A stretch of 64,000 bases of DNA, from assembly GCA_017853575.1 (NCBI GenBank), contig JAFMJI010000003.1, positions 62,001 to 126,000 on the forward strand. The letters run 5' to 3'. Every line of letters starts with the position of its first letter. The stretch's first letter is position 1. Both the position numbers and the translations under genes were made by a program. Positions 1,246-13,831 of this stretch are shown one piece after another. The notes under the pieces were generated by a model. The model was not told the DNA's origin. It saw only the letters and a list, made by a program, of their open reading frames with translations, and did no database searches. Origin of the DNA: Chitinophagaceae bacterium. Lineage in GTDB: Bacteria > Bacteroidota > Bacteroidia > Chitinophagales > Chitinophagaceae.

Positions 1246-1773
1246 TTACCAAACTATTTCAAACCGCACTTTCACCTCATTATCAACTTTGGTTAACATG
1301 AATGAGGGTCTTTCAATATTGAAATCTTCCAAAAGAAAAATTGTATTTCCAATGACAGATGTCTGGGTTCCTTTTTTCTTCACATCTGCTTCAAATGAAA
1401 TTTCTTTTTTCACACCATGAAAATCTAATATACCCTTAACTTGTAATTTTTCTTTGTTCGTCTCGGTTATGGAATTAGATTGAAATGAGATGTTAGGATA
1501 TTTGAGCGATTCCACCACTTCGAGCATATGGGCATCACGGTTGGAACTCTTGGAGTCGAATGAACTCACCTTTGCAAGAATGGCAACTTTTTCAATTTGA
1601 CCATTGGCATTTGTTTGTACAATGCCATTTAATTGATTTGATGTTCCTTCCCATGCATGCATGATATGATTCATGGCGTAGGTAATTGAAGAACTGCTTT
1701 TATTGATTGAAGTTTTTGTTTGTGAAAAACCAACAATGGGGAGTATTAATAAAAGAACTAAAAATGATTTCAT
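1246..1773 (-). CDS. YceI family periplasmic protein
   Basis: The protein has 175 residues with a signal peptide (MKSFLVLLLILPIVGFSQ). The mature part matches the YceI lipocalin-like barrel: an early ITYAMNHIMHAWEG strand, the family hallmark around FDSKSSNRDAHMLE, then a YPNISFQSNSI strand and a GVKKEISFEADV strand. YceI proteins bind polyisoprenoid or other amphiphilic ligands in the periplasm, and their physiological role is poorly defined. The start codon lies 3 nt from the end of the upstream membrane protein (1777-2367), so the two are probably co-transcribed. YceI genes are often found next to cytochrome b561-type membrane proteins, which fits the histidine pattern of that neighbour. 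The family assignment is firm; the ligand is unknown. Confidence 0.85.
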   Translation of the reverse strand: MKSFLVLLLILPIVGFSQTKTSINKSSSSITYAMNHIMHAWEGTSNQLNGIVQTNANGQIEKVAILAKVSSFDSKSSNRDAHMLEVVESLKYPNISFQSNSITETNKEKLQVKGILDFHGVKKEISFEADVKKKGTQTSVIGNTIFLLEDFNIERPSFMLTKVDNEVKVRFEIVW

Positions 1774-1776
1774 GGA

Positions 1777-2367
1777 CTAAAATTTTACACTGATGATGGC
1801 AGCACCAAAACTTGCAAATGTTGCAATGGCAGCTGCTCTGTGATATGCTTTCGGTGCGTTTTCGGCCAATACATTGGTGGTGATCATTCCTGCGAGGTGA
1901 ACAATTGAGAGTAGTTTGTGCAATCGAATTGCAGAAAGTTTTTTATCTCTGTTGATCAAAGGAGGTGGAGCAAAAAACGACATAGCAGCAGTGGCACCAT
2001 AGGTAAGATTTACAGTTGTGGCTAGACCCTCGTGCAGATCCTTGATGCGGGAGTCACCTTTATACAATTGTGATCCCGTTATTCCTTGTCCAACCATTCC
2101 GCCCAGCGTAACGAATCCAAGAATTTGATGTGCAACCAGCATTGCTCTTCTTACTTTGAGTTCTTTTTCTCTGTTGGCCATGTTTAATTGAACTATTGGT
2201 CTCATCAAACCTTTTTGACCCCACAAAATCCTTTGTGTAATCAACATTTTAGGTGGAAGCAATTGTGTTACTGAATCGCTCTTGTCTTTTAGTTCATCCA
2301 ATAAATCATTTTGTGCGAAGCAAATTTGAAATGATAGCAACGTAATGAGGAAAATATATATTTTCAT
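1777..2367 (-). CDS. Membrane protein with b561-like histidine pattern, upstream of YceI
   Basis: This 196-residue protein has a signal peptide (ends ICFAQ) and about four hydrophobic helices (roughly residues 75-97, 112-133, 148-168, 176-195). Histidines sit at or near the helix starts: H80, H112, H150, H157 and H176. That arrangement resembles di-haem b561-type four-helix membrane cytochromes, but I do not recognise a named family with certainty. It precedes YceI by 3 nt on the same strand, an association known for cytochrome b561 genes. A periplasmic stretch of about 50 residues (20-70) comes before the helices. The haem role is an inference from histidine placement and context. It could also be an uncharacterised Bacteroidota membrane family without haem. 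Confidence 0.55.
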   Translation of the reverse strand: MKIYIFLITLLSFQICFAQNDLLDELKDKSDSVTQLLPPKMLITQRILWGQKGLMRPIVQLNMANREKELKVRRAMLVAHQILGFVTLGGMVGQGITGSQLYKGDSRIKDLHEGLATTVNLTYGATAAMSFFAPPPLINRDKKLSAIRLHKLLSIVHLAGMITTNVLAENAPKAYHRAAAIATFASFGAAIISVKF

Positions 2368-2542: not shown

Positions 2543-3346
2543 ATGGAAGTCCATCATCACAGCAAAGAACATCCCAAAAACTGGAAAGAACATTTCAAAG
2601 AATTTTTTATGATGTTTCTTGCCGTTACACTTGGTTTTTTTGCTGAAAACCTGCGAGAAATATATGTTGAGAATGAACGATCCCATGAATATGTTTCCAG
2701 TTTCATGCGGGAAGTTGAAATCAATACTCATTTTATTGACTCTTTGATGGAAAGAGATCAATACTTGCTTGCATTGCATGATTCTGCCGCTATCTATGTA
2801 ATGGATGCAAAGCAAGAATTGGATCTATTTGAATTTTTTGATATTATCCCAACCTATACCATCAGGTATGTGAGCAACAATGATATATATGAGCAAATGA
2901 AAAGTGCTGGTGCATTGCGATATATAAAAGATACCACACTTCTTCATCTCATTATTGAATACAGCAATCAGTCGGAAGCAACTGAATTACGAAGCAGTTC
3001 TCAGGAAATGGATTTTTATTACAATGGATTTATTCCAGTAATGAACAAGTGGACGCTCCCTGGAATTGCAGCATATCGGCATAATGATCTGGTAGATCGT
3101 TTAACAGTCAAGGATCAAATTTTAGGCGAAAATGGAAGCATATTCAATAATCTTTCAAAAATCGTGAATGCTGATGCTGACTATAATATACGACATACTA
3201 AGTTGCAGCAATTTAAAACCGAAGTGATTCCAGTTCTTTTCCGAAGATCAAATAATATTGTTTCCTCTATGAGTTTTATGCTTAAAACAAAAAAGCAAGC
3301 AGAGGAATTATTGAGTTACTACCATAAGCATGGGAATCATGATTGA
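2543..3346 (+). CDS. Bacteroidota membrane protein with histidine-rich N-terminus (paralogue of 13046-13831)
   Basis: This 267-residue protein starts MEVHHHSKEHPKNWKEHFKE, followed by one hydrophobic helix (about residues 20-36, FFMMFLAVTLGFFAENLRE). The rest is a long, mainly helical soluble region. It shares layout and motifs with the gene at 13046-13831: an MEVHH start, a (E/L)F(x)MxF(x)AVxLGFxAEN(L/I)RE helix, an ERSHEY/HRSHEL motif just after it, and a later SAGALRYIKD/NSGSLRYFKN motif. No enzyme motif is visible. I know similar proteins only as uncharacterised Bacteroidota membrane proteins. It stands alone, divergent from the YceI pair and convergent with the TonB plug gene. The function is unknown; the N-terminal histidines could bind metal, but this is untested. 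Confidence 0.6.
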   Translation: MEVHHHSKEHPKNWKEHFKEFFMMFLAVTLGFFAENLREIYVENERSHEYVSSFMREVEINTHFIDSLMERDQYLLALHDSAAIYVMDAKQELDLFEFFDIIPTYTIRYVSNNDIYEQMKSAGALRYIKDTTLLHLIIEYSNQSEATELRSSSQEMDFYYNGFIPVMNKWTLPGIAAYRHNDLVDRLTVKDQILGENGSIFNNLSKIVNADADYNIRHTKLQQFKTEVIPVLFRRSNNIVSSMSFMLKTKKQAEELLSYYHKHGNHD

Positions 3347-3394: not shown

Positions 3395-4258
3395 TTAAAG
3401 AAGTTGCGCCCTTTTCTTTAATAATTCAATTAGCTTTTTACTTTCAGGTGTCTCGTTGAATTTTTTTGCTTTCTCTCCGAATATCCAAAGTGTATAGGGA
3501 AGTTCTTTTTGAATTTTTAATTCATTGGGGATTACATCTTCATTGCCGCCTTTTTTGGTTTTGATGATCACAACTCCATTTGCACCTCTGACTCCATACA
3601 ACGCTGTTGCAGATGCATCTTTCAAAACATCTACTGAAGCTATGTCATCAGGGTTGATGGTACTAATGTTGTTGATGGGAACATCATCTACAATATAAAG
3701 TGGACTGCTGTTCGAATTCACCGAAGTGATGCCGCGTATTCTTACTTTCGGTACTCCACCAGGGTTGTTATCACTTCCCACAAAAACACCTGAAGCTTGT
3801 CCCTGCATTTTTTGAACGAGGGTTCCATTGGTTGAAGCCAATTGTTTATCAGTGATCTTGCTATTTCTTGCGTTGGATTCAACTTCTTTGTTTATCGAAT
3901 TTTTTAAAGGCACAAATTGAATACCTATACCATATTCATTATTTGCACCTTTCCCTCTTACAAGTTTCACTTTTCCAAGTTCATTCAAAGCTATAGCTGT
4001 TGTATCGTAAATAGGTTTACCTGTAATATAATCTGTTGGATCCGCATAGTATATGTACAGGCTATCATGTAGAATATGAAAAGATCTTTTGGCATTTGAT
4101 TCCTGGATACTGTTTTGCACCAAGGCCAACGATCCTAGTTTGGAAAAATGTTGATCAAGGATTGTGGTCAACGCTTTATCAATATCAGTGATATTTTGTT
4201 GGGCCCATGCCGGCACCCCAGCGCATACAAGCCATGTGGCAATCATCCAGGTTTTCAT
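3395..4258 (-). CDS. Stand-alone SusC-type TonB plug-domain protein
   Basis: I place the start at the ATG at 4258, where MKTWMIATWLVCAGVPAWAQ forms a clean signal peptide; an upstream in-frame start would add 33 residues without a signal. The mature protein (about 287 residues in total) has an N-terminal region of unknown fold, then a complete SusC-like plug: VQKMQGQASGV, PKVRIRGITSVNSNSSPLYI, DDVPINNI, NPDDIASVDVLKDASATALY and GVRGANGVVIIKTKKG. After it comes only a short charged tail with no beta-barrel. SusC proteins are normally about 1000 residues with a 22-strand barrel, so this is a plug without a pore. There is no SusD partner nearby. It may be an anti-sigma or TonB-interacting adaptor, or a gene remnant. 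The open frame and intact signal peptide argue against simple decay. Confidence 0.75.
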   Translation of the reverse strand: MKTWMIATWLVCAGVPAWAQQNITDIDKALTTILDQHFSKLGSLALVQNSIQESNAKRSFHILHDSLYIYYADPTDYITGKPIYDTTAIALNELGKVKLVRGKGANNEYGIGIQFVPLKNSINKEVESNARNSKITDKQLASTNGTLVQKMQGQASGVFVGSDNNPGGVPKVRIRGITSVNSNSSPLYIVDDVPINNISTINPDDIASVDVLKDASATALYGVRGANGVVIIKTKKGGNEDVIPNELKIQKELPYTLWIFGEKAKKFNETPESKKLIELLKKRAQLL

Positions 4259-4409
4259 ATTCGGTATTTCTAACATAAAATTAACCAAATAAGGCAGAAA
4301 AGAGTTGTTAAAACCGCATTCATATTGATTTTCCCGAATTTTGTTAAAACTAAACAACGTTTAAACTTTAGTATTAGTTTACAGTCAAATTAAGAACAAA
4401 ATTGGTCTG

Positions 4410-4850
4410 ATGAAAGCATTGATGCTCACGATTTTATTTCCTCTCCTGTTTTCAACTACTCCTCATTGGTTGAATGACTTGAAACAGGCAAAGCAGATTG
4501 CACAGCAAGAACACAAGTATATTTTACTGAATTTTTCCGGTTCTGATTGGTGCGGTCCTTGTATAAGAATGCACCAGGAAGTTTTTAATTCAGATGAATT
4601 TCAGAAGGTAGCAGACAAGAAACTGGTGATGGTCAATGCTGATTTCCCCCGTTTGAAAAAAAATCAGTTGCCAGTCTCACAACAGAAGATCAATGATGAA
4701 CTGGCAGAACAATATAATACAAAGGGACTTTTCCCTTTTACTTTATTGTTGGATGAAAATGGGAAAGTGATTAAAACCTGGGAAGGGTTTTATGTAAATG
4801 GTTCGGTTGAATTCAGCCAATTAATCAATCAACTTACTATTTCGAAATAA
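4410..4850 (+). CDS. Periplasmic thioredoxin-family protein of the ApbE/DUF4266/DUF3570 cluster
   Basis: This 146-residue protein has a short hydrophobic leader (MKALMLTILFPLLFS) and a thioredoxin fold. The active-site motif SGSDWCGPC places the redox cysteines at 48 and 51. A FPFTLLLDENG strand contains the cis-proline position. The pattern after the motif (IRMHQEVFNSDEF) is typical of the thioredoxin_7/DsbD-gamma-like group. The stop codon directly abuts the ATG of the ApbE gene, and DUF4266 and DUF3570 genes follow, so it is the first gene of a four-gene operon. It probably reduces a disulfide in a partner, and the cysteine pair at the tail of the DUF4266 lipoprotein is an obvious candidate. 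That partner assignment is inference. Confidence 0.82.
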   Translation: MKALMLTILFPLLFSTTPHWLNDLKQAKQIAQQEHKYILLNFSGSDWCGPCIRMHQEVFNSDEFQKVADKKLVMVNADFPRLKKNQLPVSQQKINDELAEQYNTKGLFPFTLLLDENGKVIKTWEGFYVNGSVEFSQLINQLTISK

Positions 4851-5780
4851 ATGCATCCACATCTTCATCAACGCGAACAATTGCTCATGGGCAATCGTTT
4901 TCAAATAACGGTTGTTGCAGAAAATGATGAGTTTGCTGCTGATTGCATTGACAAAGCCATAAAGGAAATTAAAAGAATTGAAGAGATTCTTTCAACGTAT
5001 CAATCAACCAGTGAAACAAATTTGATCAATCAATTTGCAGGTATACAACCTGTGAAAGTGTCTAGTGAAGTTTTTCAATTGGTGCAACGCAGTATAAAAA
5101 TTTCGAAATTAACCCAAGGCGCATTTGATATAACCTATGGATCAATTGATAAACGCTTGTGGAATTTTGATTGCAATATGACCGAATTACCAGATCCTGA
5201 AACAGCAAAAGAAATGACGCGGCTGATCAATTATAGAAATATCATATTGAATGAAATTGATTCAACTGTATTTCTAAAAGAAAAGGGAATGCGAATTGGG
5301 TTTGGGGGAATAGGTAAAGGTTATGCTGCAGAGATGGCTAAAAAAGTATTGATTCAATTAGGTGTACAAAGTGGGATTGTAAACGCTTCGGGAGATCTTA
5401 CTGTTTGGGGGACACAACCAAATGGTGAACCATGGACTGTTGGCATTGCACATCCAGATTTGACTGAAAAAGCATTTGCCATGATGGAATTAAAAGACAG
5501 TGCTGTAGCTACTTCCGGCAATTATGAAAAATTTGTAATGATCAATGGGAAAAAATATTCTCACACCATTGATCCCAAAACAGGATTGCCTGTAAGGGGT
5601 ATTAAAAGTGTAACCATTTTTTCTCCCAATGCTGAAATCTGCGATGCATTGGCAACGCCGGTAACTATCATGGGTATACAACCTTCACTCCACATGGTGA
5701 ATCAATTAAATGGAGTTGAGTGTGTAATCATTGATGATGAAAATAAATTATATACTTCTTCAAATATTCACTTATCATAA
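4851..5780 (+). CDS. apbE: FAD:protein FMN transferase (ApbE), no visible signal peptide
   Basis: This 309-residue protein carries the ApbE motifs in order: LLMGNRFQI near residue 12, GGIGKGYA (152-159), NASGD (178-182, metal site), SGNYE (222-226), HTIDPKTG (238-245) and CDALATPV. ApbE uses FAD to attach FMN covalently to a Thr or Ser of periplasmic redox proteins. The start immediately follows the thioredoxin stop, so there is no room for an upstream leader in this frame without crossing that gene. The N-terminus (MHPHLHQREQ) has no signal peptide or lipobox, which is odd because ApbE usually acts outside the cytoplasm and its neighbours are exported. No classical FMN_bind domain protein is encoded nearby, so its substrate is open. 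Confidence 0.88.
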   Translation: MHPHLHQREQLLMGNRFQITVVAENDEFAADCIDKAIKEIKRIEEILSTYQSTSETNLINQFAGIQPVKVSSEVFQLVQRSIKISKLTQGAFDITYGSIDKRLWNFDCNMTELPDPETAKEMTRLINYRNIILNEIDSTVFLKEKGMRIGFGGIGKGYAAEMAKKVLIQLGVQSGIVNASGDLTVWGTQPNGEPWTVGIAHPDLTEKAFAMMELKDSAVATSGNYEKFVMINGKKYSHTIDPKTGLPVRGIKSVTIFSPNAEICDALATPVTIMGIQPSLHMVNQLNGVECVIIDDENKLYTSSNIHLS

Positions 5781-5788
5781 TTCAACAC

Positions 5789-6013
5789 ATGAAACAGAAA
5801 ATTTTATTTCGGCTGGCAGCTATTTTGAGTATACCCCTGAGCTTATGGAGTTGTATGGCTGTGAAACCTTATCAAAAAGGAAAACTCAATGATGCAGAAA
5901 TGGAATTGTCTGCTCGAAAAGTAGAGAGGGGTGAAATGGGATTTATGAGTTACCGTGAGGGGGCGTCTGGCGCCAATGGTGGAAAAGCGGGTGGAGGTTG
6001 TGGTTGTAATTGA
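5789..6013 (+). CDS. DUF4266 small lipoprotein with Gly/Cys tail
   Basis: This 74-residue protein has a lipoprotein signal: hydrophobic stretch 9-20, then LWSC with Cys22 as the likely lipidation site, followed by MAVKPYQKGKLND, typical of DUF4266. The end is SYREGASGANGGKAGGGCGCN, with two cysteines at 71 and 73. The EGAS segment (57-60) partly resembles the G-A-(S/T) core of ApbE flavinylation sites, but the usual upstream Asp is missing. The family has no assigned biochemical function that I know of. The gene sits 8 nt after apbE and 20 nt before the DUF3570 gene, and the Trx-ApbE-DUF4266-DUF3570 order is a recurrent arrangement. A small outer-membrane or periplasmic redox carrier is plausible inference. 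Confidence 0.85.
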   Translation: MKQKILFRLAAILSIPLSLWSCMAVKPYQKGKLNDAEMELSARKVERGEMGFMSYREGASGANGGKAGGGCGCN

Positions 6014-6033
6014 TTCATTTTTAGAAAAAATTT

Positions 6034-7299
6034 ATGCGTAAAATATACCTCACGGTTATAGGAATGTATTTGTTGTTTTTGAATGCATTTTCTCAAGCAG
6101 CGAATGATACATCGGGAAATTATAAAAATCGAAAACTCAAATTGGAAGAGACCAATTTAATTTCAGGTTATTATCAACAGGATGGTTATCATTCTGCTAT
6201 TACTGGTGGCAATGGAACACAATATCTTACAGATGTATCCAACATTGTACAGTTGAAATTTATTCGTTGGGATATGTATGATAGAAAGCATACCCTAGAT
6301 TTTGAAGGTGCTGTTGATCATCATACTGCTGCATCATCAGCATACGTATCTAAAACTGGTGCATCCAACAAAGGTGGAACAAGAATTTATCCTTCAATTA
6401 CATGGAAAACAGAAAATGAAGAGAGAAAATCCATTGTTGGTTTTGGTTTATCTGTTTCTAGTGAATATAACTATCATTCATTAGGAGGGAATTTGAGTTA
6501 TGCAAAAACATCTCAAGATGGTAACCGTGAATTCAATGCCAAAGCCCAAATATTTTTAGATCAGGTAAAAATGATTCAACCCTCTGAGCTCGTACCACAG
6601 CGCTCTTACTCAACCATTGTAACCAATACCTCTGCGAGCGGCAGGGGTGGGGGGTCTACAAGTTTTCTGACTTTCTTTTCCGATGATAATGATAGAATAC
6701 CATCCAGTGCAAGAAATACATATATGACATCATTCTCGTTGTCACAAGTGATCAATAAAAATGCACAATTTTCTTTATTGGCTGATGGTGTTGCACAAAC
6801 TGGTTATCTCGGGTTGCCATTTCACAGGGTTTATTGGACAAATGGATCAGTGCATGTTGAAAAATTACCCACCAGCAGATTGAAGCTTCCTCTGGGTGCA
6901 AGATTTAATTATTTTATTGGCGACAAATTTATTGTCCGCACTTTTTATAGATTTTATACAGACACATGGGGGTTGAAGGCGCATAGTTTAAGTATTGAAC
7001 TTCCATATAAGATTACGTCATTTGTTTCTGTGAGTCCTATTTATAGATATTATCAGCAAACGGCTATAAAATATTTTGCCCCGTATGCTCAGCATACATC
7101 AACCGATTATTATTATACCAGCAACTATGATTATTCTGCTTTTTCTTCTAACTATGTTGGGATTAACTTCAGAATTGCACCTCCAAAAGGTGTGTTTGGG
7201 ATTAAATCATTTAATATGTTGGAAATAAGAGGCGGACGATATGTTCAAACAACTGGATTGAATGCAAATAATATTACTGTTAACTTGAGATTCAAATAG
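6034..7299 (+). CDS. DUF3570 outer-membrane beta-barrel protein
   Basis: This 421-residue protein has a signal peptide (ends LLFLNAFSQ) and an alternating, aromatic-rich beta-barrel pattern through to the C-terminus, which ends in NNITVNLRFK with a terminal hydrophobic/aromatic strand. The early stretches GNGTQYLTDVSNIVQ and RKHTLDFEGAVDHHTAASSA are characteristic of DUF3570. It probably inserts in the outer membrane and may form a platform or pore for the DUF4266 lipoprotein encoded just upstream. It is the last gene of the Trx-ApbE operon and ends 8 nt from the convergent LolA-like gene. The family assignment is good; transport or electron-transfer function is not established. Confidence 0.82.
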   Translation: MRKIYLTVIGMYLLFLNAFSQAANDTSGNYKNRKLKLEETNLISGYYQQDGYHSAITGGNGTQYLTDVSNIVQLKFIRWDMYDRKHTLDFEGAVDHHTAASSAYVSKTGASNKGGTRIYPSITWKTENEERKSIVGFGLSVSSEYNYHSLGGNLSYAKTSQDGNREFNAKAQIFLDQVKMIQPSELVPQRSYSTIVTNTSASGRGGGSTSFLTFFSDDNDRIPSSARNTYMTSFSLSQVINKNAQFSLLADGVAQTGYLGLPFHRVYWTNGSVHVEKLPTSRLKLPLGARFNYFIGDKFIVRTFYRFYTDTWGLKAHSLSIELPYKITSFVSVSPIYRYYQQTAIKYFAPYAQHTSTDYYYTSNYDYSAFSSNYVGINFRIAPPKGVFGIKSFNMLEIRGGRYVQTTGLNANNITVNLRFK

Positions 7300-13045: not shown

Positions 13046-13831
13046 ATGGAAGTCCATCACCCACATGGTCATCATGGTCCAAAGAAGAGCAAAGAGTATT
13101 TGTTGGAGTTTCTCATGTTGTTTGCGGCGGTGAGCTTAGGATTCTTGGCAGAAAATATCCGTGAAGGTTTTATTGAAAGACACCGTTCTCATGAATTGGC
13201 CTTGGCCCTACGAACTGATATTGAACAAGATGTAGAAAAAATAAAAATTTTAAATGTTAGTCGAACTGATATTTTAAGAAAAGCGAAATTGGCGGTGTTT
13301 GATATTGAAAAAAATGGGTTTAAGCGATCTGATACAAATCAGTACAGATTGATGTTGAGGGCTGCTTATTATTGGCAATATTTCGAACCGACTACTGCCA
13401 ATCTTGATCAAATCATCAATTCTGGTTCTTTGCGTTATTTTAAAAACAGGGAGCTGGTAGAAGCAATTTCTACCTACAGAAATTTCATAAATATTATCGA
13501 ATCGCGCAATGAACGAGAGAAACAATTTTTTTATGATGTCATGCAACCCATCGTATTAGATCATTTGAATTTGTCTCCTATGGATACTACACATTTCAAT
13601 GGAGATATGATCAATAAAGACTTCTTCAATAAAATTGATTCTGGAATGATCAATATTAAAACAAAGGATCTTGTTTTATTTGACAATGATCCTAATACAA
13701 AATTTAAGGTGTTGAATGCGTATAGATCATTCAGCATCAATGTTACCAATACGATGCGAACTTACATTAAGCCTTATGTAATAGAAGCAGAGCATTTGAT
13801 TCAATTGCTCAATAAAGAGCTTGAAGATTAG
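13046..13831 (+). CDS. Bacteroidota membrane protein with histidine-rich N-terminus (paralogue of 2543-3346)
   Basis: This 261-residue protein starts MEVHHPHGHHGPKKSKEY, with five histidines in the first eleven residues, then one hydrophobic helix (about 18-36, LLEFLMLFAAVSLGFLAEN). The remainder is a helical soluble region with the family motifs HRSHELALAL after the helix and INSGSLRYFKN in the middle. It is a clear relative of the protein at 2543-3346, with the same length class and order of motifs. It is transcribed away from the PIG-L gene and ends 4 nt from the convergent serine hydrolase. No catalytic motif is seen. The function is unknown. Confidence 0.6.
   Translation: MEVHHPHGHHGPKKSKEYLLEFLMLFAAVSLGFLAENIREGFIERHRSHELALALRTDIEQDVEKIKILNVSRTDILRKAKLAVFDIEKNGFKRSDTNQYRLMLRAAYYWQYFEPTTANLDQIINSGSLRYFKNRELVEAISTYRNFINIIESRNEREKQFFYDVMQPIVLDHLNLSPMDTTHFNGDMINKDFFNKIDSGMINIKTKDLVLFDNDPNTKFKVLNAYRSFSINVTNTMRTYIKPYVIEAEHLIQLLNKELED

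Follow-up and report, generated by a model that had tools for sequence, protein, structure and literature searches.

A four-gene operon of a published class

The 64,000-nucleotide stretch analyzed here (the window; Chitinophagaceae bacterium, assembly GCA_017853575.1, contig JAFMJI010000003.1, positions 62,001 to 126,000) carries at 4410-7299, on the forward strand, four co-directional open reading frames (ORFs) for a thioredoxin-like protein, an ApbE flavin mononucleotide (FMN) transferase, a DUF4266 lipoprotein and a DUF3570 protein, in that order (Table 1). The ORF positions confirmed the description in an earlier note on this DNA of four tightly packed genes with intergenic gaps of 0, 8 and 20 nucleotides. 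The operon belongs to the class of ApbE/DUF3570/thioredoxin/DUF4266 clusters described by Méheust et al. (2021, eLife, PMC8238504), with which it shares the four Pfam families, a pair of DUF3570 sites resembling [S/T]GA[S/T] (of which the first fits just the relaxed pattern [ST]xAS), a C-terminal CXC in DUF4266 and the lack of a local DsbD gene. The last of these also holds for 316 of the published clusters, and a DsbD gene within the cluster, the strict mark of the published "DsbD system", is absent here.

Conservation was assessed in 112 related loci, of which two (L080 and L104) were removed as copies of L056 and L037, leaving 110; comparison of the two sets turned up no further copies. The window's genome belongs to a family that includes Chitinophagaceae, and two of its relatives, G028 in the same genus and G063 in the same family, have cluster DNA identical to that of contigs RGVM01000351 (Chitinophagia) and DGDD01000105 (Chitinophagaceae), respectively. 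Before alignment, rows truncated at a contig end were excluded, as were ApbE rows below 200 bits; with the window included, this left 100 thioredoxin, 106 ApbE, 113 DUF4266 and 109 DUF3570 rows. All four genes lie on one strand in 100 of the 110 distinct loci and in the identical order in 96, indicating that the grouping is not due to chance; a thioredoxin gene lies within the cluster in 100 loci. Three loci (L081, L129 and L132) have the DUF4266-DUF3570 pair between the thioredoxin gene and apbE, with a second pair after apbE in L081 and L129. The plasmid collection gave two records, both from Hymenobacter. The ApbE of the window scored 276.8 bits against a Pfam cut-off of 25.6, and H238, D265 and T269, which we take to be active-site residues, as well as K156 and D182, are each conserved in 106/106 rows.

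Table 1. Positions of the operon's genes and of candidate functional sites in the window
Feature	Position	Strand	Evidence
Exported thioredoxin-like protein, 146 aa	4410..4850	+	Pfam Thioredoxin_7 5.2e-14; N-terminal signal-like segment
CxxC of thioredoxin, C48-G-P-C51	4551..4562	+	
Signal-less ApbE FMN transferase, 309 aa	4851..5780	+	Pfam ApbE 2.6e-82
DUF4266 lipoprotein of 74 aa with lipobox Cys22 and Gly-rich tail	5789..6013	+	Pfam DUF4266 2.7e-17
C-terminal CGCN of DUF4266, a possible redox or metal-binding CXC	5999..6010	+	C71 and C73 in 113/113; G72 and N74 in 112/113
DUF3570, predicted 16-strand outer-membrane barrel, ApbE substrate, no cysteine	6034..7299	+	Pfam 5.7e-28; AlphaFold2
Flavinylation site 1, T98-A-A-S101, start of loop L2	6325..6336	+	[ST]xAS in 109/109; A100 and S101 invariant
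Flavinylation site 2, T108-G-A-S111, loop L2	6355..6366	+	Present in 105/109
Candidate third site, T199-S-A-S202, loop L4 insertion	6628..6639	+	[ST]xA[ST] in loop L4 in 15/109

DUF3570 as the probable flavin acceptor

According to Méheust et al. (PMC8238504), the DUF3570 protein of Chlorobium luteolum, coexpressed with ApbE, was flavinylated at two [S/T]GA[S/T] sites, and loss of flavinylation required both motif serines to be changed. The protein was found mostly in the pellet of lysed cells and was purified under denaturing conditions, and the E. coli coexpression strategy is described there as similar to one with signal-truncated genes. Since DUF3570 is thus a published ApbE substrate, the flavin acceptor is, by analogy with the Chlorobium protein, the product of the operon's last gene, and the acceptor puzzle was mostly solved in print. 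The earlier note was therefore wrong in describing the operon as without an obvious flavin acceptor. Its remark that no FMN_bind protein lies nearby was true and can be made stronger, as FMN_bind (PF04205) was not found anywhere in the window's genome (2.32 Mb, 99.6% complete), cluster included, or in 26 of the 30 genomes bearing DUF4266. A DUF2271 protein was also not found in the window's genome, which encodes a single DUF3570; another known kind of acceptor was rejected on these grounds. The operon shares the enzyme family and a similar target motif with extracytosolic ApbE systems acting on FMN_bind substrates (NqrC, RnfG and PplA), but differs from them in its substrate, a predicted outer-membrane barrel, and in its signal-less enzyme. 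The same genome has a second ApbE (G000:C22:264-1085, L067:171-1160) with a hydrophobic start, for which no FMN_bind or DUF2271 substrate was found genome-wide.

The two sites in loop L2 of DUF3570 are nearly universal (Table 1), the second being lost only in L051, L057, L109 and L123. The commonest forms, TSAS and SSAS, are less strict than [S/T]GA[S/T], which sets the family apart from the clusters of Méheust et al. (PMC8238504), as does the candidate site in loop L4; the window itself has TAAS and TGAS. The loop L4 motif occurs in all 11 rows with a long insertion, the window among them, and in two of the four proteins without site 2 (L051 and L057, not L109 and L123). In paralogues from green sulfur bacteria (three of the four copies in L243 and one of the two in L234), the second L2 site is absent and loop L1 carries SGAS or TGAS instead; the remaining L243 copy has only one site. 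Flavin sites thus appear to shift from loop to loop on one face of the protein. Up to nine DUF3570 matches per genome were observed in family f38 (G337 and G463), in which the FMO protein of green sulfur bacteria was found in 12/12 genomes tested; f38 is probably the lineage of C. luteolum.

AlphaFold2 predicted 16 strands for the DUF3570 of the window (39 sequences; predicted local distance difference test [pLDDT], 81.3) and for the homologue in L090 (pLDDT, 81.4), and both models agree. The top structural matches of the model were outer-membrane barrels (VIA Z 21.2 to a BamA model and 19.8 to the polysaccharide secretin 4y25), with many barrels at Z 15-21 and none picked out as a closer relative. 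BamA, 4y25 and BcsC, which we take to have 16 strands each, resemble the predicted fold at Z 18 to 21 with 9 to 12% identity, a likeness that implies no common function. Outer-membrane barrels have both ends in the periplasm, so that loops after odd strands would lie outside; in the model these include L1 (51-64), L2 (99-113, with sites 1 and 2) and L4 (180-223, with site 3). All 228 [ST][GSATN]A[ST] motifs of the 109 DUF3570s fall in loops of this presumed outer face (L2, 213; L4, 15), and about 25 would be expected outside loops L2 and L4 from shuffled sequences where none was observed, a comparison confounded by shared descent. In a wider sample of the phylum, 48 of 53 motifs in 24 copies lie in outer-side loops; four of the other five, each a VSAAS or ISAAS immediately ahead of loop L2 (L244, L245, L247 and L248), may be misaligned. 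Loops L1 (0.84) and L2 (0.75), the best conserved of the long loops, are more conserved than the strands (0.64) and the periplasmic-side turns (0.57). Such conservation of long loops is unusual at a cell surface and would fit a cofactor site.

Proposed flavin loading by an ApbE without a signal peptide

The ApbE of the window has neither the signal peptide nor the lipobox of an extracytosolic ApbE. The codon preceding its start is the in-frame stop of the thioredoxin gene, only 12 residues stand ahead of the Pfam domain (which starts at residue 13), and no hydrophobic stretch is present. Across the family, signals were gauged by the best 10-residue Kyte-Doolittle mean after any ATG, GTG or TTG (cut, 2.0), a measure of hydrophobicity and not a SignalP prediction. 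By this measure, 99 of 106 operon ApbEs lack a signal-like start at any start codon (highest signal-less value, 1.83; lowest signal-bearing value, 2.59), whereas their partners have one almost throughout (thioredoxin, 99/100; DUF4266, 112/113; DUF3570, 105/109). As a control, 21 of 22 non-operon ApbEs of the same genomes have a signal-like start, the sole one below the cut (L193) being cut at a contig end. A Fisher test of signal presence (p = 2e-18) ignores relatedness and is not leaned on; in a larger ApbE tree (FastTree), the signal states need at least four changes. In the phylum sample (20 loci, 16 with ApbE), 8 of 16 ApbEs lack a signal-like start, including all seven from family f38. 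In 12 of the 30 genomes with DUF4266, there is one ApbE only, and each is signal-less; in four single-contig genomes from two lineages (G044, which is one of these 12, and the green sulfur genomes G207, G196 and G248), a sole, signal-less ApbE stands beside DUF3570, and no exported ApbE able to carry out the flavinylation was found in the single-ApbE genomes. Another genome, G218, has two ApbEs.

The missing signal peptide has apparently gone unremarked in the literature. The main text of PMC8238504 contains no occurrence of "cytosolic ApbE", "barrel" or "Rieske", although the signal-peptide column of its supplement may record the fact. The available portions of a 2024 paper and of a 2025 ApbE review do not mention signal-less ApbEs in these clusters, and a literature search returned no title or abstract on flavin loading before export or on a flavinylated outer-membrane barrel. 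The nearest known case is the cytosolic ApbE of Klebsiella pneumoniae (PMC12052999), which is also signal-less and acts in the cytosol; its fumarate reductase substrate stays there, whereas DUF3570 has a signal peptide and a predicted place in the outer membrane.

We propose that the operon makes an extracytoplasmic redox relay in which DUF3570 is the flavoprotein, loaded by ApbE before folding and then exported as a barrel, a reading to which we assign a probability of roughly 0.7. ApbE would attach FMN to two, perhaps three, serines on one face of the unfolded chain, and the flavin-bearing chain would then pass through Sec and form a 16-strand barrel in the outer membrane, with its flavin loops at the presumed outer mouth. 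Loading before export is favored because of the conserved gene set, the single-ApbE genomes, the published E. coli coexpression (PMC8238504) and the position of the outer-face sites, beyond reach of a periplasmic enzyme once the barrel is assembled. That the reaction takes place in the cytosol itself we regard as an even bet. The full sequence of events, from a cytosolic ApbE loading an unfolded barrel precursor, through passage by Sec and the barrel assembly machinery (BAM), to two or three covalent surface flavins that give Bacteroidota and green sulfur bacteria a heme-free electron route across the outer membrane, is put forward tentatively, at somewhat less than even odds. A review cites evidence that the Sec channel can widen to about 22 Å (PMC5963308), so FMN might pass; a reported case of such passage was not found in the literature.

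Electrons would run from DsbD to the exported thioredoxin, on to the CGC tail of DUF4266 at the inner leaflet and then to the flavins, with a final acceptor outside the cell, perhaps ferric iron. DUF4266 ends in EGASGANGGKAGGGCGCN, and its only cysteines other than the lipobox Cys22 (conserved in 113/113 homologues) are 71 and 73. Méheust et al. noted the CXC end and suggested redox cycling (PMC8238504); a redox-active DUF4266 was thus already proposed in print and is plausible, and the invariant cysteines fit it. Docking on the DUF3570 barrel, which has no cysteine of its own, is likewise a plausible hypothesis. Of the five residues after the lipid-bearing cysteine, no more than one is acidic in the 112 of 113 DUF4266 rows fitting the search pattern, and the window's protein has no acidic run there. 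The surface-export signal of Bacteroidota lipoproteins, defined in other genera (PMC5080379), was scored as at least two acidic residues right after this cysteine, and the scarcity of such residues suggests that DUF4266 may face the periplasm.

Several observations weigh against this proposal. Seven of the 106 operon ApbEs have a signal-like start, and in the phylum sample 8 of 16 count as signal-bearing when L248 (1.93, just under the cut) is included, so a periplasmic ApbE probably works for some lineages; the measure itself, as stated, reads only hydrophobicity. Natural thioredoxin-ApbE fusions with a signal-like start exist (L038:4363-5808 and L062:4368-5927), and the L062 fusion nests among signal-less ApbEs in the tree. 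apbE is missing from the stretch read in 4 of 110 DUF3570 loci (L051, L066, L093 and L116). The TAAS of the window and the usual TSAS and SSAS deviate from [S/T]GA[S/T], and L252, whose ApbE bears a signal, has neither DUF3570 motif but ASAS and SSPSS instead. Strand parity is the basis for assigning the loops to the outer side, and the loops are modelled with low confidence (pLDDT below 50 at residues 102-111 and 190-221). The only DsbD (PF02683) of the window's genome is encoded outside the cluster, on another contig (C15).

In one rival reading, the signal-less ApbE still reaches the periplasm, for example together with the exported thioredoxin or along some unusual pathway, and modifies DUF3570 there before the barrel folds. 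The two fusions and the related clusters with signal-bearing ApbEs would agree with this, as would the report that the majority of bacterial ApbEs are apparently secreted (PMC12052999), and the true ApbE start is unsure in 18 of 96 loci, where only GTG or TTG occurs near the end of the thioredoxin gene. Against it stands the split between signal-less ApbEs and signal-bearing partners, together with the gene junction. The relative frames of the two genes are +1 in 73 loci, +2 in 16 and 0 in 7 (in the window they share one frame with a single TAA between), and an ATG overlaps the thioredoxin gene by 1-40 nucleotides in 57 of 96 loci, 32 of them by 14 nucleotides. A general read-through or frameshift fusion as an export route was rejected on this basis, with single cases still conceivable among the 18 loci, and we consider this alternative unlikely. 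Less likely again is that the signal-less ApbE serves some other cytosolic protein, while the genome's second ApbE acts on DUF3570 or DUF3570 is left unmodified. The hydrophobic start of that second enzyme and the Klebsiella precedent of a cytosolic ApbE serving a soluble fumarate reductase (PMC12052999) are in its favor, but the single-ApbE genomes and the conserved gene order count against it.

The remaining alternatives concern DUF4266. The earlier note took it for the flavinylated protein, pointing to a G-A-S string near its C terminus, and DUF4266 does co-occur with apbE. The residue at -3 of this string is, however, Glu in 113/113 homologues, unlike [S/T]GA[S/T], and Ser60 is replaced in 15 of 113 (by Ala in 12, and by Thr, Tyr and Val) despite the presence of apbE in all 15 loci. 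The substrate demonstrated in print is DUF3570 (PMC8238504). DUF4266 as the acceptor was rejected on this motif conservation and appears very improbable; of the two motifs whose conservation the earlier note had singled out, the CGC cysteines proved invariant, whereas GAS did not hold up as an ApbE target. Alternatively, the CGC tail may bind a metal ion and form a metal-to-flavin relay in place of thiol cycling, which would be compatible with DUF3570 as the acceptor. The invariant cysteines in a Gly-rich tail and the VIT1 iron transporter gene beside some loci (see below) would fit a metal site, but the thioredoxin gene in nearly all clusters and the published proposal of CXC redox cycling (PMC8238504) favor thiol chemistry, leaving metal binding rather doubtful.

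Genomic neighbors and implications

A Rieske protein is encoded just upstream of the first cluster gene, on the same strand, in 47 of 110 loci (e.g., L091:4138-4611), and a VIT1 iron transporter lies beside the cluster in 26; both counts come from BLAST clusters, with Pfam checks on two Rieske representatives and one VIT1 representative. These neighbors would fit electron or iron traffic. The Rieske [2Fe-2S] copies that were read have a lipoprotein-like start, and one of the two Rieske matches in the window's genome (L203:1459-1869, reverse strand), on another contig, is of the same type, with 44% identity to an operon-linked one. One flank cluster, the largest with 51 of 110 loci, was discounted as a spurious ORF because its most connected member maps by coordinates to the complementary strand of apbE itself.

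Around the operon in the window, a divergent 320-aa ORF (3395-4357, reverse strand), whose sole Pfam match is a TonB plug domain, lies 52 nucleotides from the first gene. The ORFs at 2543-3346 and 13046-13831 (both forward) encode proteins that, judged by eye, resemble relatives and begin with His-rich segments (MEVHHHSKEH and MEVHHPHGHHG); the first has no Pfam match. At 1246-2367 (reverse strand), a YceI protein stands next to a 196-aa protein without a Pfam match that may be membrane-embedded, given its hydrophobic stretches containing His; the two could possibly form a small redox pair.

If ApbE acts inside the cell as proposed, the flavin would be attached before Sec export and the system would need no export of flavin. 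DUF3570 would then represent a flavin-based counterpart of the porin-cytochrome conduits.

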